From NCBI GenBank assembly GCA_018829565.1, contig JAHJTW010000202.1:1-33468 (forward strand): a stretch of 33,468 nt of DNA, written 5' to 3'. The position numbers were made by a program, and so were the translations under genes. How positions within the stretch are numbered: position 1 is the first letter of the stretch; every line of letters begins with the position of its first letter. This stretch comes from a bacterium. Its GTDB lineage: Bacteria; Krumholzibacteriota; Krumholzibacteriia; LZORAL124-64-63. Below the pieces are notes generated by a model. The model searched no databases, was not told the origin of the DNA, and worked only from the letters and a program-made list of their open reading frames with translations. Shown piece by piece: positions 2,675-30,859 of the stretch.

Positions 2675-3790
2675 TTATGATCCCTCCAGCGCCTCCTTCA
2701 CATGCGGCATCAACGCCCTCGTGAACGCCACCGCATCGCGCGCCGTCAGGTGCGACCACTCGGGGCATTCGAAGCCCGCCAGCTCCGGATGGTTCTCGAA
2801 GTGGATCCCCGGCGCCCCGCTGGCCCCCACCATCCGGGCATAGATCGCCTCGCGCGGCGTGGTTTCCTGCTCGATCTCGCGCAACTCGCCGCTCGAGGGC
2901 GGACGGACCCACACCATCCGCGCTCCGCGGGCCCGCAGCTTATCGCAAGCCGCGGCGATCCGCTGGAAGTGCGCCTCGAATCCCGCCTGGACCATCTGGC
3001 CGAACTCCTCGGGCGGGATGTGCGGCGGCGGTGGCGGCGGCGTGAACAGCGGCACCCAGATCTGCTGGATGCGCGCAGCCAGCGGCGTGCCGAAGTCGCA
3101 CAGCTCCCACATGCGGTTCTGGCGGCGGTCGTCGGGCCAGGCGAAATAGGGGGGAAGCACGGGCGGCAAGTTGTCGGCCGTGCCCGGGCGGTCGGCAAGC
3201 TGCAGGTTCTTCTGCAGCAGCGTGGGCAGGGTCAGGTCATCGGCATTGATGAACGCCAGGCGCTTCTGCAGCACCGAACCGAAGACCAGGCCCGCCTTCT
3301 GCGACGGCGACCAGTTGCGGTACCGGCCCAGCGCCCCGTTGGCCCGGTCGACCGGCATGCCCTGAGGCGCCATCCACAGGCCGGGAACCGCGCCGATCAA
3401 CAGGATGCCCCGGAACTCGGTGTTGTCGGCCAGATCCTCGAGGATGGGCAGCGGATTGGTGCCCGGCATCGCGAGCTGCACCGGCAGCGCGACTCCCAGC
3501 GAGTCGGCGCAGGTCTGCAAGTCGAGGTCGAAGAGGATGCGCGACGATCCGATCACCACCATCTGGTCGGGGTCGTCGTTGACCTGCGACCGCGAGCGGG
3601 CCCACAGGTCGGACGAGTCGTTCAGGCAGGGCGCGTAACCCCATGCGCGCACCTTGCCTTCCCACACGCCTACCGCCACGAGCAGAATGACCAGCGCGAC
3701 GATCGCCGAGCGCGTCCACGCCCCCCGGGGAGTCTCGCGCCGGAACTCGCCCCCGCCGCCGCCGCTAGAACTGGAAGTAGATGAAGGCAT
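2675..3790 (-). CDS. Membrane-anchored SGNH-hydrolase-like protein associated with MBOAT acyltransferase
   Basis: N-terminal TM segment (SAIVALVILLVAVGVW), MVVIGSSRILFDLDL block and C-terminal SHLTARDAVAFTRAL; overlaps the MBOAT gene by 26 bp. Confidence 0.7.
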   Translation of the reverse strand: MPSSTSSSSGGGGGEFRRETPRGAWTRSAIVALVILLVAVGVWEGKVRAWGYAPCLNDSSDLWARSRSQVNDDPDQMVVIGSSRILFDLDLQTCADSLGVALPVQLAMPGTNPLPILEDLADNTEFRGILLIGAVPGLWMAPQGMPVDRANGALGRYRNWSPSQKAGLVFGSVLQKRLAFINADDLTLPTLLQKNLQLADRPGTADNLPPVLPPYFAWPDDRRQNRMWELCDFGTPLAARIQQIWVPLFTPPPPPPHIPPEEFGQMVQAGFEAHFQRIAAACDKLRARGARMVWVRPPSSGELREIEQETTPREAIYARMVGASGAPGIHFENHPELAGFECPEWSHLTARDAVAFTRALMPHVKEALEGS

Positions 3791-5189
3791 TGTCCGACCC
3801 CTGCGTGAGAGTGAGAAGAACGAGCATGGCGCCCCAGACGATCCCGTGCGCCCAGGCGGGCAGCCGCTCGGCGGCGCGTTCGACCGGGATGGAGCGATGG
3901 ATCCAGTGCGTGACCACCAGCCCGGTGATCACGACAATGACCTTGACGATGTCCAGCGTGGGCAGCACCTGGGCGCCGTCCCTGATGATCCCGAACATCG
4001 ACAGCAGCAGCAGCTTGGCGGAACTGAAGCTGTCGGCGCGGAAGAACACCCAGGTGACGTTCACCAGCAGGTAGGTCACCAGGCCCAGGGCGATCTGTCC
4101 GCCGAGGGTACGGATCCAGGCCGCCCCGCCGAACCGGCGCTGGAGCGCGCGCTCGATCCCCAGGTATGCGCCGTGCAGTCCGCCCCAGGCGACGAACGTC
4201 CAGCTCGCCCCGTGCCACAGGCCGCCCAGCAGCATCGTGATCATCAGGTTCACGTCGGTGCGCACCTTGCCCTTGCGGTTGCCGCCGAGGGGGATGTACA
4301 GGTAGTCCCGCAGCCACGTCGACAGCGAGATGTGCCAGCGACGCCAGAAGTCCGAGAATCCCACCGCGGCGTAGGGGCAGCGGAAGTTGTCCGGCAGCGA
4401 GAATCCGAAGCACATCGCCGCGCCGATGGCGCAGGTCGAGTAACCGGCGAAGTCGAAGAAGATCTGGCCCGAGAACGCGAGGACGCCCAGCCAGGCGTCG
4501 AGGGTGGCCAGCGGTCCGCGATCCCAGTTGAACACCGTCTCGGCCGCGCCCGAGAGCATGGCGTCGGCCAGAACGACCTTCTGGAACAGGCCCAGCGTCA
4601 TCAGGAACAATCCCCAGCTGAACATCTCGCGCGTGGCGTTCTGCGGCTTCGCGCACTGGGGGATGAAATCAGTGGCGCGCACGATGGGTCCGGCCACCAG
4701 CTGCGGGAAGAACGTCACGTAAAGGGCGAAATCCAGGAACGACCGCGACGGCGCCGACCGCTTCAGGTACACGTCCAGCGTGTAGGACATGGTCTGGAAG
4801 GTGTAGAACGAGATGCCGACGGGCAGGATGATGTCGGGCTTGGCCGCCTCGAAGGTCATCCCGTAGAAGCCGACCAGGTTCTGGAAGTTCTCCAGCATGA
4901 ACCCGCCGTACTTGAAGAACCCGAGCAGGCCGAGGTTGGCGGCCAGGCTGACGCAGAGCAGGGCGACGCGTCGGCCCTTGCGCTCCTCGGTGTGCATGCG
5001 TCCGGCGGCGAACCAGTCGATGGCCGTCGAGATCCACAGCAGGATCACGAAGGGCGGATTCCAGGCCGCGTAGAACGCGTAGCTGCCCACCAGGAGCAGC
5101 GCCTTGCGGGCGGTCCAGCCGCGCATGGCGTAATACGCCGCGAGCAGGACCGCGAAATAGACCACGAAGGTCAGGGAGTTGAAGAGCAT
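3765..5189 (-). CDS. MBOAT-family O-acyltransferase (AlgI-like)
   Basis: MLFNSLTFVVYFAVLLAAYY...LWISTAIDWFAAGRM...GISFYTFQTMSYTLDVY...GGLWHGASWTFVAWGGLHGAYL; AGAGGAA Shine-Dalgarno. Confidence 0.9.
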   Translation of the reverse strand: MLFNSLTFVVYFAVLLAAYYAMRGWTARKALLLVGSYAFYAAWNPPFVILLWISTAIDWFAAGRMHTEERKGRRVALLCVSLAANLGLLGFFKYGGFMLENFQNLVGFYGMTFEAAKPDIILPVGISFYTFQTMSYTLDVYLKRSAPSRSFLDFALYVTFFPQLVAGPIVRATDFIPQCAKPQNATREMFSWGLFLMTLGLFQKVVLADAMLSGAAETVFNWDRGPLATLDAWLGVLAFSGQIFFDFAGYSTCAIGAAMCFGFSLPDNFRCPYAAVGFSDFWRRWHISLSTWLRDYLYIPLGGNRKGKVRTDVNLMITMLLGGLWHGASWTFVAWGGLHGAYLGIERALQRRFGGAAWIRTLGGQIALGLVTYLLVNVTWVFFRADSFSSAKLLLLSMFGIIRDGAQVLPTLDIVKVIVVITGLVVTHWIHRSIPVERAAERLPAWAHGIVWGAMLVLLTLTQGSDNAFIYFQF

Positions 5190-12083: not shown

Positions 12084-12596
12084 TTACTCCACCGTCACCA
12101 TCGCCTCCCCCAGTTCCAGCCCTTCCACGAACACCTCCGTGCCCGTGGCGTCGATGAAACGCACATTCTCCGGGTCGATCATGAAATGGCACACTCCGGG
12201 GGCGAGGCCGCGGATCGTGATCGTGCCGACCGACCCGCTCCTCAACGCCTTGCCGTTGTCGTTGATGTCGGTGAGCGAGAGATAGATCACCCCGTCGTCC
12301 ACCTGGAAGATTCCCAAGGCGTCCGAACCCAGGAAACCTCCGGGAGCATACCCATCGTTTTCTTCCACCTCGACCACCGCGGGGTCATAGCCTATTCGCA
12401 GGCTCAGGGCGAATACCTTTCCAGACACGTCCTTGATGGCCACCGAGAGACTGCCCGTCTCATCCGGGCCGAGCGTCTCGCTCGACAGGGACAGACGAAT
12501 CCCCGGTTCCGGCTCCGGTGCGACAGGATCGTCGCTGCAGGCAGCCAAGAGCAGGCCGATCAGGCACAGAACCAGGGCGTTGGGTGTCTTCCGCAT
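12084..12596 (-). CDS. Lipoprotein with cohesin-like domain
   Basis: Lipobox LLLAAC; IRLSLSSETLGPDETGSLSVAIKDVSGKVFALSLRIGYDPAVVEV...GIFQVDDGVIYLSLTD...GSVGTITIRGLAPGVCHFMIDPENVRFIDATGTEV matches the cohesin pattern. AAGGAG before ATG 12596. Confidence 0.75.
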   Translation of the reverse strand: MRKTPNALVLCLIGLLLAACSDDPVAPEPEPGIRLSLSSETLGPDETGSLSVAIKDVSGKVFALSLRIGYDPAVVEVEENDGYAPGGFLGSDALGIFQVDDGVIYLSLTDINDNGKALRSGSVGTITIRGLAPGVCHFMIDPENVRFIDATGTEVFVEGLELGEAMVTVE

Positions 12597-12614
12597 GGTC
12601 ATCTCCTTTGCCCT

Positions 12615-15404
12615 TTACTTGAGGACGGTCATTTTCCGGACGGCCGTTTTCCCGGCGGCATCCAGGCGATAGAAGTAGACCCCGCTGCCCAGCCTGTCGG
12701 CGGTCACCTCGACGGCATGGCTGCCGGCCTCGAAGGGGGTATCGATCAGCACCGTTTTGGCCAGCCGACCACCGAGATCGTAAATCTCCAGGGTGACCGG
12801 CCCAGGCCGGGGCAGGTCGAAGGAAATGGTCGTCCGCGGATTGAAGGGATTCGGATGGTTCTGGTGGACGGCGAAGGCCATGGGAACTCCGGATTCTTCG
12901 ATCCCGAGGATCCCCGCCAGCAAGGCCTTCATCGCCCTGGTGGGCTCACCGGAACCCGACAGGCCGTTGTATAGGGTTTGAAGCGCCGCACCATGTTCAG
13001 CGAACAAATCTGGATCGCTCGGATCGACTTCGGTCACGAAAGAACCGTTGTCGTGGGTCCGGCCCCAGTTGAGCCCGATGGCGAACACGTCCTGCTCGTC
13101 CACGACGCCGTTGCCGTCGGCATCCGCCCGCGCCGCCAGTAGGGGATCCCAGCAGGGGCAGCTCCCGGCCGTCCATCCCAAGCCCGCGCCGTCCCTGGGG
13201 CTCCCGGTTTGGAGGAAGTGGATGCCGATGGGCAGGATGTCGTACTCGTCGACCATACCGTTGTTGTCTGTATCACCCGGATAGACTTCGTACCCGCCCT
13301 CGCCTGTATAGGCCTCGCAGGCCAGGTGAGTGCATTGCGCCAGCTTGAAGGGCCCGCAACCGTTGCCCGACATGGCCAGGGCCTTTTGCCCCGCTGGATT
13401 CAAAGCCGGCCCGTCCATCTCCAGCTCGATGGAACCTGTCGCGAGGTTCAAGACCCCCGCCGATGTTTCGGAACTGTAGAATATGAATGGCGCCCCGGGG
13501 TCGAGAGTGATCAGCCTCAGCCACCCCTCGGCGCCCAGGACCAAGTCCTTTTCCACTGCGAGGGTTTCCCCATCCACCGCTCTGAGATGGCCGGAGTTGT
13601 CGCCCAGGAGGATCTCCGCCGCATCGTCTCCATCGACGTCGGCCAGAGCCAGGGTGGCGAAGCCCTCGATGTCGATCTGCCGTCCGTCGTGAGTACTTCC
13701 GTCGAACACCCAGAAATCCCCGCAATAAGCGATGAGCTCGGGCTGGGGGTCCTGGTCGACATTCCCCACAATCACCTGCCAGATCTTGGACCAGTAAGAC
13801 CCCAAGCTCGGGCTGTGCCACTCCACCTCGCCCGTTGAACCGTCGATGACATAAACGAATACCCCGGGAGCTCCGGTGGTCTCGCGCCCCCCCCCGGCCA
13901 CGATCTCGGTGCCGCCATCGAGATCGACGTCCCCCAGAGCAAGGGAATACATGGGCGCTCCGTTGTCGAAGACATAGCCATGTTCCACCTCGTGGCTGGC
14001 CCCGTTGACCACGTAGACCGCGCCCGCATACAAATAATCCGTGGCCACCAGGATCTCCGTGTCCCCGTCGTCGTCGCAATCGCCGATTTCCAGATCTTGA
14101 ATTCCCGTCATGGACATGCGGCCGAAAAAACTCCGTCCGCTCTGGAATTCGAGCTCGTAAGTGGAGGCGTCCACGATGGTGAGGATCCCATCGCCGTGGC
14201 CGCTTTCGCTCACGCGCGACATGAACACGATTTCCTCGGAGCCGTCGTCGTCGCAATCCCCGATTTCCACCAGGCCGAAACCGCCGGTGTGCAGGCTGAT
14301 GAACTCGCGGGCCAGGGACGGGAGTTCGTGCACGACAAAGTTGTCCTGCCCCGTGGTGCCGGAGCCGCATCCCCAGAAGACTTCCAGATTCCCGTCGCCG
14401 TCCAGATCGGCGCAGCCCAGGTTGGTCACGCCCTCGCTGGGAACGGGGATGGCCCAGAGGTCCTCCAGCGTGACCACATCCACCCCGTGGATGTTACCCC
14501 CCTGGGCGTCCGCATAGAGGACCTCCTTCTTGCCGTCCCCGCTGACGTCCATGAGCAGCAGGGCGTCGATGTCAATGCGCGTTTCGAGTTCCCATTTCTG
14601 GGTCTGCAGATCGGCGTCGAAAGCCCGGATGGCGTACCAGCCTTCGGCTCCCACGATCTCGGACTGGGGATCGTCATCGATGTTGCCCAGGGCAACGCGG
14701 ATACCGAATCCTGCGCCCGAGTTGTTCCATTCCTCCTTCAGGGCCTCCCCGTCGTATTCAAGGACCAGGCCCTCGACCGTGACGACCTCCAGCGCCGGAT
14801 CCCCGTCGATGTCGCCTACTGCGAAGTCCCGGGCGCCGACAGCCAGTTGATGATCAAGGGTCATGCCCGCAGTTTCGAAGAGATACAGGTTGCCGGTGTT
14901 CGAAAGGACCAACTCCTCGAGCCCGTCATTGTCCGCATCGGCCAGGCACATCTGCCGGATGTAGCCCGCGCCGGATTCGATTCGGCGGACCTCCGTCATG
15001 GTCGCCGCGTCGAATTGCAGAATCATTCCCGTATCCTGGACGATGAAGATCTGAGGTCCGGCGCCAAGATCGAACGACCTGATCAACAGGATGTTGTCGG
15101 TGGACGTTTCGCTGATCCAGGTGATCCTGTATTCCCCTGAATCCTCATCGCGTTCGAGGATGTACCAGTAGTCGTTGTCCCCCCAGGTACTCAGGGATCC
15201 CCCGCAGGCGATCTCGATGAGGCCGTCCCCGTCAAAGTCCCCCGTGGCGAAACCGGAACGCCCTATCTGGTCCCCCAACACCCCGTAGATCCAGGTCTGC
15301 TCCAGGTCCACCGTAGACTTGGAGGGGAAAGCCTGGGCCTGCATGGAGAAGACGACAACCCAGAGTACCGAGAAGAGGAGGATGGTGGATTTTCGCAACT
15401 GCAT
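12615..15404 (-). CDS. Large secreted FG-GAP/VCBS-repeat propeller protein with internal dockerin-like domain and C-terminal FlgD/T9SS-like tail
   Basis: Signal peptide MQLRKSTILLFSVLWVVVFSMQAQA; about eleven repeats such as GDFDGDGLIEIACGG, GDCDDDGSEEIVFMS and GDVDLDGGTEIVAGG; dockerin-type loops DTDNNGMVDEYD and DADGNGVVDEQD; tail NHPNPFNPRTTISFDLPRPGPVTLEIYDLGGRLAKTV...VRKMTVLK. Confidence 0.85.
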   Translation of the reverse strand: MQLRKSTILLFSVLWVVVFSMQAQAFPSKSTVDLEQTWIYGVLGDQIGRSGFATGDFDGDGLIEIACGGSLSTWGDNDYWYILERDEDSGEYRITWISETSTDNILLIRSFDLGAGPQIFIVQDTGMILQFDAATMTEVRRIESGAGYIRQMCLADADNDGLEELVLSNTGNLYLFETAGMTLDHQLAVGARDFAVGDIDGDPALEVVTVEGLVLEYDGEALKEEWNNSGAGFGIRVALGNIDDDPQSEIVGAEGWYAIRAFDADLQTQKWELETRIDIDALLLMDVSGDGKKEVLYADAQGGNIHGVDVVTLEDLWAIPVPSEGVTNLGCADLDGDGNLEVFWGCGSGTTGQDNFVVHELPSLAREFISLHTGGFGLVEIGDCDDDGSEEIVFMSRVSESGHGDGILTIVDASTYELEFQSGRSFFGRMSMTGIQDLEIGDCDDDGDTEILVATDYLYAGAVYVVNGASHEVEHGYVFDNGAPMYSLALGDVDLDGGTEIVAGGGRETTGAPGVFVYVIDGSTGEVEWHSPSLGSYWSKIWQVIVGNVDQDPQPELIAYCGDFWVFDGSTHDGRQIDIEGFATLALADVDGDDAAEILLGDNSGHLRAVDGETLAVEKDLVLGAEGWLRLITLDPGAPFIFYSSETSAGVLNLATGSIELEMDGPALNPAGQKALAMSGNGCGPFKLAQCTHLACEAYTGEGGYEVYPGDTDNNGMVDEYDILPIGIHFLQTGSPRDGAGLGWTAGSCPCWDPLLAARADADGNGVVDEQDVFAIGLNWGRTHDNGSFVTEVDPSDPDLFAEHGAALQTLYNGLSGSGEPTRAMKALLAGILGIEESGVPMAFAVHQNHPNPFNPRTTISFDLPRPGPVTLEIYDLGGRLAKTVLIDTPFEAGSHAVEVTADRLGSGVYFYRLDAAGKTAVRKMTVLK

Positions 15405-15712: not shown

Positions 15713-17128
15713 CTATTCTCTTTCATCCAGGGAAAGCCCGACCTCCTTCAGCATCCGCTGCAAGCTCGGCCGGGGAACGCCTGCAGCCTCGGCGGCGGCC
15801 GTCACGTTCCCCCCGCAACGTTGCATGAGCTCGGTCATGTAGGCGTGCTTGAAGCGGTGGGTTTCCTTGGCCTTGGCGACCTTGTAGGGCGCCAGCTTCG
15901 CCGGCCAGGTCCGCATGGCTGGAGCAAGGTGCTCGGGGCGGATCCACCCCCCGTCGCAGTCGATGACCGCCCTCTCGACGGCGTTGCGCAGACCGCGGAC
16001 GTTGCCCTTCCACTTCTGTCCCAGCAGGAATGCGCCGGCCTCCTCGGAGAATCCCTTGATGGGCTTTCCACATCTCTGGGCGAAGACCCCGAGGAAGTGT
16101 TCCGCAAGGGCGGGAACGTCCTCCATGCGCTCCCGCAGGGGGGGCAGGGGGATGCGATAGACGTTGAGGCGGTGGTACAGCTCCTCTAGAAAATCCCCCG
16201 AGGCGACCCGGCTTTCGGGATCCGAACTCGAGGCGGCGATCAGCCGGATGTCCGCCACCTGGGCGGCCGACGCGCCCACCGGGTAATATTCCCCGTCCTC
16301 GAGGATGCGCAGCAGCTTGGACTGCAGCGGCATCGTGGCGAAGCCGATCTCGTCCAGGAAGAGGGTGCCGCCGCGGGCCATGCCGAACTTGCCGATGCGG
16401 TCCTTCTCCGCCCCCGTGAACGCCCCTTTGAGGTGGCCGAAGAGTTCCGACTCGATGAGGTTCTCGGGAATAGCCGCGCAGTTCACCGCCACGAAGGGAC
16501 CATCACGTCGATTGCTGATCTCGTGGACGCGCCGGGCCACCATCTCCTTGCCCGTGCCCGTCTCCCCGGTGATCAGCACCGTGGTGTCGGTAGGGCCTAC
16601 ATTGCCGATGTTCCTCAGGATCCGCAGCATGGCAGGGTCGGCAACGACCATTTCACCGCTGAGGTGCTTGACGTCCTCGGCGAAGGCCCGCAAGCGCCGC
16701 CTGGAGGTCGCATCCGCGTAGGCGAGATTGATCAGGTTGGACAGTTCGCCCAGGGCGGGTGGCTTTCGCACGTAATGGAACGCCCCCAGCTTGATGGCCT
16801 GGACCACCGTCGCGATGTCTCCGGCCTGGGTGACCATGATGACCGATACCGGCTCGTCGCGCCCCACCAGGCGTTCCAGGACCGCCAGTCCGCCAAGGCC
16901 GGCTCCCATGTCGACATCCAGGAGGACCACATCCGGCATGATCCCGCCGACCCGTTCAAGGGCTTCTTCCCCGGAACTCGCCACCGCCACGGAATAGTCG
17001 TCCGCAAGCAGCGAGGCCAGGTCCGCGGCGAATCCCTTGTCGTCATCGACGAGAAGAACGCGGATGGGCTTCGGACTTGAATGTTGGAGGCCGCCCCCGG
17101 AATCAGTTGCGTTCATGGCTGGATCCAT
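15713..17128 (-). CDS. NtrC-family sigma-54-dependent response regulator (REC-AAA+-Fis HTH)
   Basis: IRVLLVDDDKGFAADLA...VVLLDVDMG; GETGTGKEMVARRVHEIS; ELFGHLKGAFTGAEKDR; C-terminal GGNVTAAAEAAGVPRPSLQRMLKE. Confidence 0.95.
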   Translation of the reverse strand: MDPAMNATDSGGGLQHSSPKPIRVLLVDDDKGFAADLASLLADDYSVAVASSGEEALERVGGIMPDVVLLDVDMGAGLGGLAVLERLVGRDEPVSVIMVTQAGDIATVVQAIKLGAFHYVRKPPALGELSNLINLAYADATSRRRLRAFAEDVKHLSGEMVVADPAMLRILRNIGNVGPTDTTVLITGETGTGKEMVARRVHEISNRRDGPFVAVNCAAIPENLIESELFGHLKGAFTGAEKDRIGKFGMARGGTLFLDEIGFATMPLQSKLLRILEDGEYYPVGASAAQVADIRLIAASSSDPESRVASGDFLEELYHRLNVYRIPLPPLRERMEDVPALAEHFLGVFAQRCGKPIKGFSEEAGAFLLGQKWKGNVRGLRNAVERAVIDCDGGWIRPEHLAPAMRTWPAKLAPYKVAKAKETHRFKHAYMTELMQRCGGNVTAAAEAAGVPRPSLQRMLKEVGLSLDERE

Positions 17129-19556
17129 CCTCCGCGGCGAGTTCCGTCGAGAGGGGCAGGCTCAGCACCATCGTGGTGCCGGCACCCAGTTCGCTGTGTT
17201 TGACCGCAAGATCGCCTTCGAACTTTCGCAGGAGCTCCCGCGACCGCGAGAGTCCGAGTCCTCCGCCCTTGCGCGTACTGTAACCGGGCTGCATGACCCG
17301 CTGCCAGTCGTCCGGCACGATGCCGCAGCCGGTATCGCTCACTTCGCACCTTGCGAGACCGTCCACCACCTCCCAGGTGATGGTCAAGGTCGCCTCCTCC
17401 TTGCCCTCCATGGCCCGCAGGGCGTTGCCCACCAGGTTGTCCAGGACGAAGGCGAGTTCACGTTCATCGGTCCTCAAGGAGGGGGAGGGGTGCTGTGGAT
17501 CCGGCAGGCGAACGTCCGTGCCTCCGGTGGCCAGGTCCTCGCCGAATGCCTCCAGGACCCGGCCAACCGTGGCGCGCAAATCCGCGTGGAAATCCGCAGC
17601 GGCCTCTCTGCGCAGCTTCTGCAGCGCTTTCTCGGCGTCTTCCCCGGCCGCTCTCAGTTCGCCTTCCAGCCCCAGGAGCTGGTCGGCCGCGAAGCCATCA
17701 GCGGCGAGGGATTCCAGGTGCCGGTCGATGAGAGCCAGGGCCTCCTTGGCGTTGAGGCGGGCCCTTTCATCGAGGCCGCCCGCCCGGGCCAGGTCAAGGA
17801 TGGCCAGCATGTCGGGAATTGCCCGTTCCCGGCATTCGCGCTCCAGATTCATCAGCCGGGTGGTGATCTCCGGAGACACGGCTCCCTTGGCCGCGCAGCC
17901 GCCGATCAACCAGGTCAACCGACGCAGGGTCTGCAGCCCGCCGATGGCCCCGTGGCCGGAGAGTTCGAGCTGGCCGAGGATCTGGAGGCGCAGGTCCCGC
18001 CGGGAAATGAGGTTCGGCCCGCTCACCCGGCGCCTCCGCCAGAATCCCGCCGCCGCCCCGGCCGCGGCCACCCCCAGGCCGGCAACCCATAGCCCGGGGA
18101 CGGTCGATTTTCTGGCCGGCACAAGGCTCAGGACCTGAACGGGATCCGAAATGCGATTGTACAGGAGGATCTGTTTTTGGCCTTCTGCCGGCCTGGTGAT
18201 CTCGATTCCACCGGGGCCTGGTCCTAGCCCGGGTTCATGCACATGACGGGCAAGCACCGCCCCGTCATTGGAAATGGCGTATACGTTTCCCTGAAAGTCC
18301 GTCACCAGTAATTCCTCACCCGACTCGGGAAGGAGATCTTCACTCCGTTCCAGGTTGAGCCGCCCCTGGCAGCGAACCACCGGCTCGGGTTTCCCGGGGT
18401 CACGGCCTCCACGGGGAATCTTCAGCAATTGGCCGACTCCCGACCACCAGATATCCTGGCTCCCATCCGAAGGAACGACGCATAGCCCTGTGGCCTGTCC
18501 CGGCATGGAATACTCGGTCAGGATTTCGCCCGTAGCACCTTCGAGCACACGAATGACATTGCCTTCCATTTCTTTCTGCATCTGGCTGGCGACCACGACT
18601 TCGGGATTCCCCCCGGGATCAGTACCCAGACGGATGAGGGATCCGCCCGTCCCCTTGAAAACCCGATGCGACCATAACAAGGTGCCGTCCAGGTTCAACG
18701 CGAACACCATGGCATGGTCGTCGCTCGTGCCGTTGTATTCCCGACCATTCTTGAAATTGTTGACCGCGATCCCCTGGAAGACGAATTCGTCTTCGCCGTC
18801 GCCGTCAAGGTCTGCAAGCAGGCCGTCGCCCACCTTGGGATCCGGCCCGACCAGGTAACGCCAGTATTCCTCGCCAGTCAGGCAATCCAGCGCAATGGCG
18901 CCCCTGGGTTCGAGATCCAATCGGGCACAGGACAGGATGATGAAGGACCGACGCATTCCTCGTGGCGTCGGAACCTCGCCGACACAACCGACCCGGTACC
19001 GGCCGTCCCACTTTCCGTCGGGACGGAGATCAGGACCTGCCGCAAGAGTCACCGATGTTTTCACCTCCCCCGTCACGGCGTCGAGGGCCCAGATTCGCCA
19101 AGTGCGGTTGTCCTCGGTTCTGGCGGAGCAAATCAAGTCCTCAACGCCGTCGCCCTCCACATCGTGAAAACCCTCGACCAATCCGCAGGGATTCATCCAG
19201 GTGAAATCCACCGGGAGGTTGAATTGCCAGTTGGTTATCTTGAAGTTCTCCCTGGGGGAGACAGAAACGACACCGAGTTCGTTGATCCGGATGCGCTCGT
19301 CCGCTCCATCCCCGGTGAGGTCGCGCAAGGCGAAATTGGTACCGGTCCCGGATCGAAAAATCCCGTGTCCCCCGTTCATGATTTCCATAACCTTGAAATC
19401 ATAGGGCAGGTGATCGGGGCATTCGGAGAGGTCGAGAAAGCTGGATTGAACCGGACCGGCCGAAATCCCCAGAATCAGAAGGTTAAGGGTCAGCAGGGGG
19501 TGAATCCTGGTCAAGATGTCGGTCTCCCTGTGATGAGGATCTCTGGAAGTTGGCAT
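17103..19556 (-). CDS. Sensor histidine kinase with periplasmic FG-GAP/PQQ-like propeller ectodomain (true start may be TTG at 19514)
   Basis: Ectodomain repeats DLTGDGADERIRI, DVEGDGVEDLICS and DLDGDGEDEFVFQ; TM GLWVAGLGVAAAGAAAGFW; ATPase boxes LDNLVGNALRAM, DTGCGIVPDDW and GGGLGLSRS; overlaps the response regulator by 26 bp. Confidence 0.88.
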   Translation of the reverse strand: MPTSRDPHHRETDILTRIHPLLTLNLLILGISAGPVQSSFLDLSECPDHLPYDFKVMEIMNGGHGIFRSGTGTNFALRDLTGDGADERIRINELGVVSVSPRENFKITNWQFNLPVDFTWMNPCGLVEGFHDVEGDGVEDLICSARTEDNRTWRIWALDAVTGEVKTSVTLAAGPDLRPDGKWDGRYRVGCVGEVPTPRGMRRSFIILSCARLDLEPRGAIALDCLTGEEYWRYLVGPDPKVGDGLLADLDGDGEDEFVFQGIAVNNFKNGREYNGTSDDHAMVFALNLDGTLLWSHRVFKGTGGSLIRLGTDPGGNPEVVVASQMQKEMEGNVIRVLEGATGEILTEYSMPGQATGLCVVPSDGSQDIWWSGVGQLLKIPRGGRDPGKPEPVVRCQGRLNLERSEDLLPESGEELLVTDFQGNVYAISNDGAVLARHVHEPGLGPGPGGIEITRPAEGQKQILLYNRISDPVQVLSLVPARKSTVPGLWVAGLGVAAAGAAAGFWRRRRVSGPNLISRRDLRLQILGQLELSGHGAIGGLQTLRRLTWLIGGCAAKGAVSPEITTRLMNLERECRERAIPDMLAILDLARAGGLDERARLNAKEALALIDRHLESLAADGFAADQLLGLEGELRAAGEDAEKALQKLRREAAADFHADLRATVGRVLEAFGEDLATGGTDVRLPDPQHPSPSLRTDERELAFVLDNLVGNALRAMEGKEEATLTITWEVVDGLARCEVSDTGCGIVPDDWQRVMQPGYSTRKGGGLGLSRSRELLRKFEGDLAVKHSELGAGTTMVLSLPLSTELAAEDGSSHERN

Positions 19557-25794: not shown

Positions 25795-28302
25795 CTACCG
25801 CACCAGTACGACTTTCCGCGTCGCCGCGGTCGCACCCGCCGAAAGCCTCAGGAAGTAGACGCCCGAAGCCATCCCCGTCCCCGCCTCGTTTGTCCCGTCC
25901 CAGACCAGGTTCCGCAGGCCGGCCGGATGCTCGCCCGTGGCCAGCGTCCGGACCCGGCGGCCCGCCAGATCGTGGATCGTGATCTCCACCGGTCCGGCCG
26001 TCAGGACCTCGTACCGGATGGTGATCCGCGGATTGAAGGGGTTCGGGTAGGGGTCCAGCAGGCGCGCGCGGCCGGTGGATCCATCCGGAATCTCCGGTGC
26101 GGCCGAGATCCCGCCCGGCGACAGGATGACCAGGCCCATGCGCGGCAGTTCGAGCATCACCGACCGCGGGAATCCGTCGTAGGCGACGGCCTCGGGCACG
26201 AGCCCGCCGGGATTGATGGGGCCTGCGCCGCCGTAGAGGGGATCCTGGCTGTTCAGGTCTTCCTGCCAGGTTCCGTCCACCGGCAGACCGATGCGGTAGC
26301 CCGAGTAGTCGGAATTGCTGAAGTTCACGACGACCACCTGCACGGCGCCGTCCAGGTTGTTGCGCTGGAAGGCCAGCACGTTGCCGCCCTCGTTCAGGTG
26401 GAAGACGTTCACGCCCACGTCGGCGCGCAACGCGGGTGAGGTGCGCCGCAGGGCGATCAGGTCCTGGAAGTAGGAGAAGACCGGCGCGTAGGTGGTCTTC
26501 TTGCCCCAGTCGATGCGGTTGACGATGTCCGTGCCGAAATCGGTGTCCTCGAGCCACTCGGTCCCCTGCAGGATGGCCGGGATGCCCGGCGCGGTCATCA
26601 CCAGGCCCTGCGCCAGCTTGACGCGGCCCTGGGCGTAGACGTCGTCGTGGGGATAGGTGGTGTCGATGGTCTTGACCATCCGTTGCCCGCCGCTGGTGGG
26701 CCAGCATTCGTCATGGAGCTCGAGGTAGTTGACGACGAAGCGGCCGTTCAGGTATTCGCCGCTGCCGTTGACGATGTCCCTGATCTTCCACATCTCCGGA
26801 TCGCCGGCCGCCGCATCGAAGATCTCTTCCCGCAGGCGGTCGGTGAACGCGTCGTGGTACTGGGCATCGAAGCCCGCACCGCTCAGGCTGGTGGGACGGG
26901 TGAACCAGGGATTGTCGGGCAGCTGCTCGGCGATGGCGATCTTGTCGGCCGAGCGCGCGTCCATCTCGTCGTTCAGCCGCTGCATCAGGCTCCAGCCCGA
27001 GGCCTCCTGGGGCGCGATGTTCATGTAGCTGGTGGCGTCCATGCGGAAACCGTCGAACCGGAACTCCTCGAGCCAGTGGCCGGCGCTCTCGGCGAAGTAG
27101 TCCCGCACGCCCTCACGATCGAAGTCCGCCTGGTCTCCCCAGGGGGTGCCCACGGCCGGATCGTCGAAGTAGATCTGCCCGCCGTCGTAGTACCACAGGA
27201 AGTTGTCGGTGCTCGAGAAGTGGTTCCAGACGATGTCCAGCAGCACCGCGATGCCGTGGCCGTGCAGCGCGTCGATCATCTGCTTCAGGTCGTCGGGAGT
27301 GCCGTACTTCCACTCCGGAGCCCACTGGCTGACGGGGTTGTAGCCCGCGGAGAAGTCACCGGGAAATTCGGTGATGGGATTCAGGAGCACGACGTTGATC
27401 CCCAGCTCGGCCAGATGGCCGGCCCGGGCGGCGACGTCCACGTACCGCGAGGGGAACGGGGCCGAACCCAAGGGATCATTGCGGCCGGCGAAGGTGCCCA
27501 CGTGCAGCTGGTAAACCACCATCTCCTCGAAGGGCGGGACGGTGAAGTCCGGCGCCTGCCAGGCGTAGGCGTCGGGATCGATGATGCGGGCGTTGTAGTT
27601 GTTGTTGGGAATGACCGATTTCGCGCGGGCGTCGGTGTTCCAGTGGGACCCATTGAAGAAGTACTTGTACATCTGGCCCGCGGTGGCCGCGGGAACCCGC
27701 CCGATGAAGTACTCGCCGACCCGGCTCAGGGGATTCGCCAGGCCCCACCCGTTGAACTCTCCGCGGACGTGGGCGGTCGCGGTGGCGGGAGACCACACCT
27801 TGAACACCACTCCGCCGCCCGGCAGCGGCGTGGCGCCCACCGGCGCATGGTCCAGGGTCGTGAAATCGATGACGAAGCCGCCGTCTGCGGGAAGACCATC
27901 GCTCATCCCGCCGATGCTGAGGTAGTCGGTGTCCCCGCCGTCGGTGAGCTCAAGGTAATAGGAGATCGTCGCGGACGCGGTCGCGGGGGCCTGGGCGGTC
28001 CAGACGTCATAGGGGCCGCGGCGGTGGTCGAAGGCGGCCGGGATCCAGGCGAGGCCGCCGCCGTCATCGACGCCCAGGCGGGCGGCGGTGAGATCGTCAT
28101 GGAAGACCTGGAAGCTCACCGCGAAGCTCTGGCCGTCGACCGGGCAGCGGGGACTCAGGTCGAACCGGCCGACGTGGGAGGCTCCGGACCACTCGACGTT
28201 GCCGTCGGGGCCGGCGGCGATTCCCGGGGGCGGGGATCCCCCGCCGGTTATCAGGAAAACGCACAGAATTACCAGGGCCCGGCGGGAAATGAGAAACTGC
28301 AT
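25795..28302 (-). CDS. Secreted GH13-family alpha-amylase/branching-enzyme-like protein with C-terminal FlgD/T9SS-like tail
   Basis: Signal peptide; FKVWSPATATAHVRGEFNGWG; VYQLHVGTFAG; LLDIVWNHFSS; FRFDGFRMDATSYMN; tail DPYPNPFNPRITIRYEVLTAGPVEITIHDLAGRRVRTL...KVVLVR. Confidence 0.92.
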   Translation of the reverse strand: MQFLISRRALVILCVFLITGGGSPPPGIAAGPDGNVEWSGASHVGRFDLSPRCPVDGQSFAVSFQVFHDDLTAARLGVDDGGGLAWIPAAFDHRRGPYDVWTAQAPATASATISYYLELTDGGDTDYLSIGGMSDGLPADGGFVIDFTTLDHAPVGATPLPGGGVVFKVWSPATATAHVRGEFNGWGLANPLSRVGEYFIGRVPAATAGQMYKYFFNGSHWNTDARAKSVIPNNNYNARIIDPDAYAWQAPDFTVPPFEEMVVYQLHVGTFAGRNDPLGSAPFPSRYVDVAARAGHLAELGINVVLLNPITEFPGDFSAGYNPVSQWAPEWKYGTPDDLKQMIDALHGHGIAVLLDIVWNHFSSTDNFLWYYDGGQIYFDDPAVGTPWGDQADFDREGVRDYFAESAGHWLEEFRFDGFRMDATSYMNIAPQEASGWSLMQRLNDEMDARSADKIAIAEQLPDNPWFTRPTSLSGAGFDAQYHDAFTDRLREEIFDAAAGDPEMWKIRDIVNGSGEYLNGRFVVNYLELHDECWPTSGGQRMVKTIDTTYPHDDVYAQGRVKLAQGLVMTAPGIPAILQGTEWLEDTDFGTDIVNRIDWGKKTTYAPVFSYFQDLIALRRTSPALRADVGVNVFHLNEGGNVLAFQRNNLDGAVQVVVVNFSNSDYSGYRIGLPVDGTWQEDLNSQDPLYGGAGPINPGGLVPEAVAYDGFPRSVMLELPRMGLVILSPGGISAAPEIPDGSTGRARLLDPYPNPFNPRITIRYEVLTAGPVEITIHDLAGRRVRTLATGEHPAGLRNLVWDGTNEAGTGMASGVYFLRLSAGATAATRKVVLVR

Positions 28303-29116: not shown

Positions 29117-30859
29117 CTACTTCAAGAGAGCCATCTTCCGCACCGCCGCGAAGTCCGCCGTCTCCAGCCGCGCCAGGTAGGTGCCCGACGGCACCGGCCT
29201 GCCGGCGTCGTCGCGGCCGTCCCACTCGAGCGCATGGGCGCCTTCGTTAAGGGTGGATCCCGCCGCCAGCGTCCGCACCAGACGTCCCGCCGCATCGAAG
29301 ACCCGGACCGTCGCCGGGCCCGACCGTTCCAGGGTGAACGAGATGGTGGTCCGGGGATTGAACGGGTTGGGGTGGACGTTCGGCTCCTTCGCTGCGGCTG
29401 GTGGCGGTCCGGCCGCCCTTTCGTTCCAGCCCCGGGTCGCCCAGGTCTCGATCGCAACGGAGAGGCCTCCCACCGGGAGCTTTTCGAAGGCGAACGCCTC
29501 CGTGTCGATGATCCCCAGGGACGCCGAGCCCACGCCGACACGGAAGGTGTAGTTCCCCGCCGGAGCGGCGGCGGGCACGTCCTGCCGGATCCCCGTCCGC
29601 ACCACCGTCGCCCCGGCCCGGAACAGCACGTCGGGCACGGTGGTGACGGGGTAGGTCGATCCGTTCGGCAGGATGGCATCGACCTGGGCCGTCGCCAGGA
29701 TGTCGGTGGCAGTGGTGTTGGTGATGGACACGTCGTAGGTGAATGATCCGCCGGTGGCCGGAATGGTCAGGGGCCCGGCGACCGTGATGACCACATCGAG
29801 ATCCGGGCCGGCTTGATGCAGCAGGTCGTTGCTGCTGATGAAGAACCCCGCTCCCTGGGATGTGAAAGCGACAAGGTCCCCGACTTCCCTCACGCCGAAA
29901 CAGGCATCCCCGGGATCGTGATGCCCGACCTCGACGGGATCGGCGGGATCGGAGACGTCGATGATCCGCACCCCCAGCTCGTTGTTGGCCACGTAGGCGA
30001 AATCGTCCCGCAGCCAGACGTCCGTTGCCCGGTCCTGCAGGGCCAGGCCCCCGAGGTCCTCGATCGCCGCGGGATCGGTGACGTCCAGGATCCGGAACTG
30101 GTCGTAGCACCCCACGTAGGCCAGACCGTTTTTGACGGCAACTGAAAGGGCGCCCGCCCCCGGCAGGACATGGCTGCCCAGGATGACGAGGTTGCCCGGA
30201 TCGGAAGCCTCGATGATGGTCAGGTTGGGAGTGTCGATGACGTAGATCATCGTACCCTGGGCTTCGATGCTGTAGCCCGCTCCGGGAAGGACCGTGCTAT
30301 CGCGCGGGATGGGAAGCGTGGGGTTCGAAACGTCGAACGTCCTCACCCTCCCGTCGAACTGGACGAGAAATACGAGGTCGCCGGACACCGCGACGTCCAG
30401 CGTGAAACCCGACATGGTGAACGAACCGACCTGGGCGGCATTGGCCGGATCGGAGATGTCGATCACCCTCAGGCCGTACTGGCTGTCCGCCACGTAGGCA
30501 TGGGATCCGGCCACGGCGATGCCGATGGCGCCTCCGGGAACGGGGACGTTGGCGCCGGCCGGGTGGGGATTCGCGGGATCGCTGACGTCCAGGATGACCA
30601 GTCCCTCGAATTGCGAACTGATCAGGGCCAGGTCCCCTTCGACGGCCAGGCGCTCGGGGTTCCCCGGCAGCAACCAGCTCCCGACCGGAGTCATGCCGGC
30701 GATGGACTTGTCGGCGGGGCCGGGACTCGTTGCCCGATCCATTGCGCCGTCCAGGGCCGCTTGAAGGGCCGACCGCGAGCCGGGATTACCCAGAACGCTC
30801 CCCGAGGCGCAGGTGATGGTCACGAGAAGGAGGATCGCCGCCATGGTCCTCGATTGCAT
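29117..30859 (-). CDS. Secreted LVIVD-repeat propeller protein with C-terminal FlgD/T9SS-like tail
   Basis: Repeats GLVILDVSDPANP, GLRVIDISDPANA, QFRILDVTDPAAI and GVRIIDVSDPADP; tail NVHPNPFNPRTTISFTLERSGPATVRVFDAAGRLVRTL...VRKMALLK. Confidence 0.9.
   Translation of the reverse strand: MQSRTMAAILLLVTITCASGSVLGNPGSRSALQAALDGAMDRATSPGPADKSIAGMTPVGSWLLPGNPERLAVEGDLALISSQFEGLVILDVSDPANPHPAGANVPVPGGAIGIAVAGSHAYVADSQYGLRVIDISDPANAAQVGSFTMSGFTLDVAVSGDLVFLVQFDGRVRTFDVSNPTLPIPRDSTVLPGAGYSIEAQGTMIYVIDTPNLTIIEASDPGNLVILGSHVLPGAGALSVAVKNGLAYVGCYDQFRILDVTDPAAIEDLGGLALQDRATDVWLRDDFAYVANNELGVRIIDVSDPADPVEVGHHDPGDACFGVREVGDLVAFTSQGAGFFISSNDLLHQAGPDLDVVITVAGPLTIPATGGSFTYDVSITNTTATDILATAQVDAILPNGSTYPVTTVPDVLFRAGATVVRTGIRQDVPAAAPAGNYTFRVGVGSASLGIIDTEAFAFEKLPVGGLSVAIETWATRGWNERAAGPPPAAAKEPNVHPNPFNPRTTISFTLERSGPATVRVFDAAGRLVRTLAAGSTLNEGAHALEWDGRDDAGRPVPSGTYLARLETADFAAVRKMALLK

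Follow-up and report, generated by a model that had tools for sequence, protein, structure and literature searches.

A widely conserved cohesin lipoprotein-dockerin gene pair outside cellulosomes and its possible role in holding a type IX-secreted protein at the cell surface

Introduction

Cohesin-dockerin pairing is best known from cellulosomes, in some of which single-cohesin proteins anchor their partners at the cell surface. What would a cohesin and a dockerin encoded side by side do in a bacterium of the phylum Krumholzibacteriota? This question is raised by a DNA stretch of 33,468 nucleotides (the window; assembly GCA_018829565.1, contig JAHJTW010000202.1), in which the gene of a propeller protein, P0002, is followed by that of a small lipoprotein, P0001. 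An earlier note had read the two as a non-cellulosomal cohesin-dockerin pair whose lipoprotein anchors the propeller on the surface. The two genes do form a real, widely conserved non-cellulosomal cohesin-dockerin gene pair, and the conserved adjacency expected of it was found, while the anchoring is a step that we infer. The reading that we favor, as the probable though by no means secure one, is that of a dedicated, non-cellulosomal pair forming a Ca2+-dependent tether, which would hold a single protein exported by the type IX secretion system (T9SS) at the outer membrane. Binding, its Ca2+ dependence, the surface exposure of the lipoprotein and the role of the propeller are all proposed here from sequence.

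Gene layout and domain architecture

Both genes lie on the minus strand (Table 1), and coordinates and translations agree with the earlier note in placing the lipoprotein gene 12 bp downstream of the propeller gene. The two are in the same frame and are probably co-transcribed. An AGGAG ribosome site precedes the propeller-gene ATG at 15404. For the lipoprotein, the second ATG (12596), situated six bases beyond AAAGGAG, is a likelier start than 12602.

Table 1. Features of the propeller and lipoprotein genes (positions in the window)
Feature	Position	Strand	Basis or content
Propeller protein gene (P0002), 929 aa	12615..15404	minus	Signal peptide, FG-GAP propeller, dockerin, helical hairpin, T9SS sorting domain
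Dockerin module, residues 708-787, ~80 residues	13044..13283	minus	Dockerin_1 19.1 bits isolated; relatives; AF2 helices
Ca2+-binding-type loop 1, DTDNNGMVDEYD, residues 711-722	13239..13274	minus	Sequence; conserved in 90 modules
Ca2+-binding-type loop 2, DADGNGVVDEQD, residues 761-772	13089..13124	minus	Sequence; conserved in 90 modules
Helical hairpin between dockerin and sorting domain	12906..13013	minus	Alignments; AF2 helices
T9SS type A sorting domain, residues 851-927	12624..12854	minus	TIGR04183 30.4 bits, cut-off 23 (NCBIfam)
Cohesin lipoprotein gene (P0001), 172 aa (170 aa from ATG 12596)	12084..12602	minus	Pfam Cohesin, lipobox, PDB profile matches, Foldseek
Lipid-acceptor Cys22 then SDD (C-S-D-D)	12528..12539	minus	Read from translation
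Cohesin domain, residues 33-172	12087..12506	minus	Family HMM; Pfam match residues 45-129; AF2 pLDDT ~90-98 over most

P0002 begins with a signal peptide (MQLRKSTILLFSVLWVVVFSMQAQA), carries an FG-GAP propeller recognized by Pfam, and ends in a T9SS sorting domain that the earlier note had overlooked. With this domain over its cut-off and the SprA translocon encoded in the genome (500 bits in sum against a cut-off of 200), P0002 qualifies as T9SS type A cargo. The window genome holds 103 sorting-domain matches, and just one of those proteins has the dockerin module considered here. The helical hairpin between module and sorting domain is common to relatives with two separate genes, and in fused forms a second cohesin takes its place. 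The T9SS sortase may already attach the protein by its sorting domain, which would make a second anchor unnecessary and counts against the tether.

The lipoprotein carries a cohesin

The identification of the lipoprotein as a cohesin is firm. The earlier description of a lipobox protein with a cohesin-like sequence is borne out by the lipobox LAAC (Cys22) and by a match to Pfam Cohesin (PF00963) of 24.7 bits, above the curated cut-off of 24.1. The same profile finds 13 of the 24 neighboring cohesin-type proteins at E<=0.01, and a profile built from neighboring lipoproteins matches scaffoldin cohesins in the PDB (3l8q, E 1e-5). Foldseek searches with both structure models, which show the beta-sandwich cohesin fold, rank cohesins first, the nearest solved one being the non-cellulosomal, archaeal 2xdh, with TM values normalized by target of 0.76-0.81 over the two models (0.76 for the window lipoprotein).

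Gram-negative lipoproteins by default face the periplasm, and this counts for the main rival to a surface tether, namely that the pair binds in the periplasm, where the cohesin lipoprotein would be an inner-leaflet escort or holding factor for the folded T9SS cargo before export and would release it afterwards. T9SS cargo does transit the periplasm, and we nonetheless regard this escort as unlikely. The mature window lipoprotein starts with CSDDP, polar at +2 and acidic at +3/+4, which resembles the surface export signals of Bacteroidota lipoproteins, SDDDD and SDDFE (PMC5080379), and argues against the escort, though the lipoproteins of the relatives differ in this respect. Since the C-S-D-D motif is short and absent from those lipoproteins, it is weak evidence for export, and an outward-facing lipoprotein is a guess with some support.

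A divergent dockerin at the end of the propeller protein

The earlier note had also pointed to two EF-hand-like loops of dockerin type in P0002, and DTDNNGMVDEYD and DADGNGVVDEQD are indeed its only matches to the EF/dockerin loop pattern. Seven further Asp-rich loops, such as DFDGDGLIE, are part of the FG-GAP propeller itself, and motif counting alone was rejected as proof of a dockerin on account of them. Both loops are present in all 90 relatives examined, position 1 being always Asp and position 12 Asp or, occasionally, Glu. AF2 places helices at residues 720-728, 755-760 and 772-778 of the window protein, a dockerin-like set of three. Loop statistics and the AF2 model thus give the features by which a dockerin is recognized: a pair of Ca2+-type loops, each with Asp at position 12 and a helix after it, and three helices in total.

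Scored against Dockerin_1 (PF00404) on its own, the window module reaches 19.1 bits, short of the curated cut-off of 22.9; the whole-protein Pfam scan of P0002 reported no Dockerin_1, and a Pfam Dockerin_1 search of its own genome missed the module, so that a family profile was needed. Among the family members, 54 of 60 match Dockerin_1 at E<=1e-4 (best 9.9e-15), and the whole proteins from loci L053 and L081 exceed the cut-off; it is because its relatives match that the window module is taken as a dockerin. Of the two Pfam matches that the earlier note proposed to look for, the one to Cohesin was obtained over its cut-off, while that to Dockerin_1 was obtained through the relatives and failed for the window module on its own. 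The best PDB match of the family profile is a solved cellulosomal dockerin, 2y3n_B, with both halves aligned, and generic calmodulins rank lower. In comparison with textbook dockerins, the family has a longer inter-loop segment with conserved tryptophans, and we place the module within the dockerin family as a divergent branch.

Copies in the genome and in the phylum

The 4.39 Mb genome of the window has only two Pfam cohesins, and the dockerin module occurs in it once, so the neighborhood of the two is more than chance. The remaining cohesins found in the genome are confined to one cluster on contig C232, where they lie within or next to proteins that bear another type of EF-hand pair; all cohesins detected in this genome therefore sit on or near EF-hand-pair proteins.

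The second EF-hand-pair type (LDVGPTTDWSVDARPTTDNKVQFEDLMMFAINYG) of the C232 cluster (L019 4552-10389, minus) is part of a sorting-domain protein of 1400 residues, beside a cohesin; two further cohesin-like genes come next, and a 50%-identical second copy of the LDVGPTTDWSVDARPTTDNKVQFEDLMMFAINYG-type pair is located 8 kb off in another cohesin protein (C232:30644-30889).

These cohesins, together with their different EF-hand pair, could be taken to suggest a larger cellulosome-like complex in which the lipoprotein is the anchoring scaffoldin and the other dockerin proteins have gone unrecognized. A precedent is offered by Cloacimonadota, for which dockerin-bearing enzymes and a multi-cohesin scaffoldin with a sorting domain have been reported (PMC8542988). 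We consider such a complex very improbable here, given one cohesin per lipoprotein and one such module in the genome; the search of the window genome turned up no multi-cohesin scaffoldin, nor was a glycoside hydrolase with a dockerin seen. A cellulosome proper was rejected, there being no multi-cohesin scaffoldin and no further dockerins of this type. The non-cellulosomal role that the earlier note assigned to the pair fits the single dockerin per genome seen in most cases and the lack of a multi-cohesin scaffoldin beside the pair.

Within the phylum, the module was found in 5 of 80 genomes, the window genome and four others in which it is convincing, and in all five a cohesin-type lipoprotein gene adjoins the module gene. 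In three of the others (L015, L016 and L017) a cohesin lipoprotein gene of about 170 residues follows 11-15 bp after the module gene, while the heads of the module proteins are quite different: lamin-tail and CotH-like in L015 (by likeness to L050 and L053), a C39-type peptidase in L016, and in L017 a large protein with a Big_9 domain and a HEMAH motif. The fourth (L018) has a head of Ig-like repeats, judged by eye. Its partner lipoprotein, in genome G076, joins leucine-rich repeats to a cohesin-like part, and its gene runs convergently to the dockerin gene (L018 682-2241, plus).

Cohesin matches are far more widespread than the module, being found in 48 of the 80 genomes, and this favors the reading that no cohesin-dockerin binding takes place at all: both would be common tail modules of secreted FCB proteins, the lipoprotein binding something else and the EF-hand module stiffening a stalk. 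We hold this to be improbable, in view of how the two families are arranged and how they diverge in a wider set of relatives.

Relatives across FCB phyla

A scan with one genome per species gave at least 289 relatives; the 80 most similar were taken and 79 loci kept; the cohesin profile was iterated. According to record titles, the kept loci come from Krumholzibacteriia, Electryonea, Calditrichaeota, Zixibacteria, Marinimicrobia, Latescibacterota, KSB1, Balneolia, Rhodothermales, Cloacimonadales, WOR-3, Poribacteria, Eisenbacteria and Bacteroidota. Across these FCB-type phyla the same tail is found on varied heads, including CotH kinases, C25, C39 and C1 peptidases, and FG-GAP propellers. Two arrangements occur. 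In the two-gene form, a head is followed by dockerin, helical hairpin and sorting domain, and then, after a gap of -11 to 83 bp, by the gene of a single-cohesin lipoprotein; in the fused form, found in other phyla, cohesin, dockerin, cohesin and sorting domain lie in this order on one chain. The conserved parts are the tail (dockerin, helical hairpin and sorting domain) and the cohesin lipoprotein, while heads can be exchanged from one species to another.

The dockerin and cohesin lipoprotein genes share four bases of the ATGA type in two loci (L051 6666-6669 and L053 3649-3652), which suggests translational coupling there.

Counted by gene offset, 49 of 88 module genes contain a cohesin themselves; a cohesin is encoded by 24 of 74 genes at +1 and by 4 of 49 at -1, against 4 of 247 genes that lie two or more places away on either side. 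The excess at +1 over larger offsets has a Fisher p of 2e-13, a value that overstates independence because a dozen loci come from one MAG (Yes70-08). Together with the five genomes of the phylum, this enrichment supplies the conserved adjacency that the earlier note had asked for. A cohesin in cis or adjacent was seen for 69 of the 88 module genes, and 11 more abut a contig end; the other 8, with both neighbors visible, have no cohesin in cis or adjacent and count against the tether. Exactly one module was found in 13 of the 15 genomes with the two-gene tail type and two modules in the other 2; these genomes are MAGs or single-cell genomes, so some module copies may be missing. In the genomes of L055 and L058, which belong to these 15, no adjacent cohesin is seen.

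An expansion unlike this one-per-genome pattern is seen in Yes70-08, with at least 12 dockerin-module genes that have a cohesin in the same chain (L064, L067-L071, L074-L076, L084, L092 and L095).

The arrangement of the genes bears on both rivals. A dedicated periplasmic escort would be in keeping with the one-to-one pairing of the genes and the very short gaps between them; in the fused forms, on the other hand, the cohesins and the dockerin are on one exported chain, so the pair would act outside there. The strong +1 enrichment, and the occurrence of the same two families both as separate genes and fused, speak against a lipoprotein and a module that do not bind each other.

Correlated divergence and structure prediction

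Dockerin and cohesin distances are correlated across 15 two-gene pairs (r 0.59, Mantel p 5e-5), a small sample from which common descent was not removed, and the correlation is unchanged once the distance of the sorting domain is controlled. The sorting domain itself is less correlated with the cohesin in the same pairs (r 0.33), and this difference is a further argument against non-binding. The correlated divergence supports, rather than proves, a partnership of dockerin and cohesin.

Structure prediction is neutral as to binding and leaves the non-binding alternative some room. An artificial chain of the P0002 tail, the TAA stop read as Gln, and P0001 was modeled by AF2 with pLDDT 87.8 and pTM 0.43, the individual domains being well predicted and their mutual placement not, so that the confident interface the earlier note had looked for was not obtained. 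A natural cis fusion (L063) gave a mean pLDDT of 88.8 and a pTM of 0.67, with one disordered linker.

Proposed mechanism and relation to known systems

In the most economical account, export by signal peptide and T9SS would be followed by Ca2+-dependent capture of the dockerin by the cohesin. The propeller protein would enter the periplasm by its signal peptide and, led by the C-terminal sorting domain, pass the outer membrane by way of the type IX system; the dockerin just before this domain would load two Ca2+ ions, and the cohesin of the adjoining outer-membrane lipoprotein would bind it, holding the propeller at the cell surface. A broader scheme is offered more tentatively, as plausible rather than probable: cargo-independent surface capture spanning the FCB phyla, in which, for most carrier genomes with separate genes, a single T9SS-exported dockerin protein has its own Ca2+-dependent cohesin lipoprotein, with cis-fused forms elsewhere.

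The pair shares with the type I and II systems of clostridial cellulosomes the two Pfam families (PF00963 and PF00404), the cohesin fold and the paired Ca2+-type loops. It differs from them in having no multi-cohesin scaffoldin or dockerin-bearing glycoside hydrolases, with one dockerin in most genomes that have separate genes, and in its longer inter-loop segment with conserved tryptophans, its T9SS sorting domain, its lipid anchor and its Gram-negative FCB hosts. Cohesin- and dockerin-like modules outside cellulosomes were reportedly described by Peer et al. in 2009; the present pair is likewise non-cellulosomal, and here it is a defined pair of neighboring genes, with a conserved tail, in many phyla. 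As for usual T9SS type A cargo (TIGR04183), P0002 has the C-terminal sorting domain, with SprA in the genome; unlike such cargo, it has an added dockerin and a cohesin lipoprotein partner, which would replace or supplement the usual attachment.

A further comparison is with the cloacimonadotal 'Ca. Stygibacter', whose cellulosome-like complex has a 3,755-residue multi-cohesin scaffoldin serving several enzymes (PMC8542988). The common features are an FCB phylum, dockerins on C25 and S8 peptidases and other enzymes, and a cohesin protein with a sorting domain; that complex differs from the present pair in the multi-cohesin scaffoldin, and the part of its description consulted mentions no dedicated adjacent lipoprotein. 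A literature search that left most subscription journals outside found neither a dedicated lipoprotein pair nor the cis cohesin-dockerin-cohesin form reported, and nothing relevant on dockerins in Krumholzibacteria or Latescibacteria or on cohesin lipoproteins of candidate phyla.

If true, the tether would be a second means of retaining T9SS cargo on the cell surface, and its one-cargo, one-anchor form, tied to T9SS export in many uncultured phyla, would be a simpler way of using cohesin and dockerin. It would also assign a testable function to lipoproteins that so far have none, and would supply new orthogonal pairs for surface display.

Other genes of the window

The genes immediately upstream of the pair (15713-19556, minus) encode a response regulator of sigma-54 type and a histidine kinase, the sensor part of the latter being weakly FG-GAP propeller-like. 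The window does contain a glycoside hydrolase 10 kb from the pair, a GH13 alpha-amylase that has CBM48 and a sorting domain (25795-28302, minus), but it lies outside the operon of the pair and has no dockerin. Another T9SS-type surface protein without a dockerin is an LVIVD-repeat propeller with an FlgD-like sorting domain (29117-30859, minus). At 2675-5189 (minus), to judge from the sequence, an MBOAT acyltransferase-like protein adjoins a lipase-like partner, an arrangement that may be compared with polysaccharide O-acetylation.
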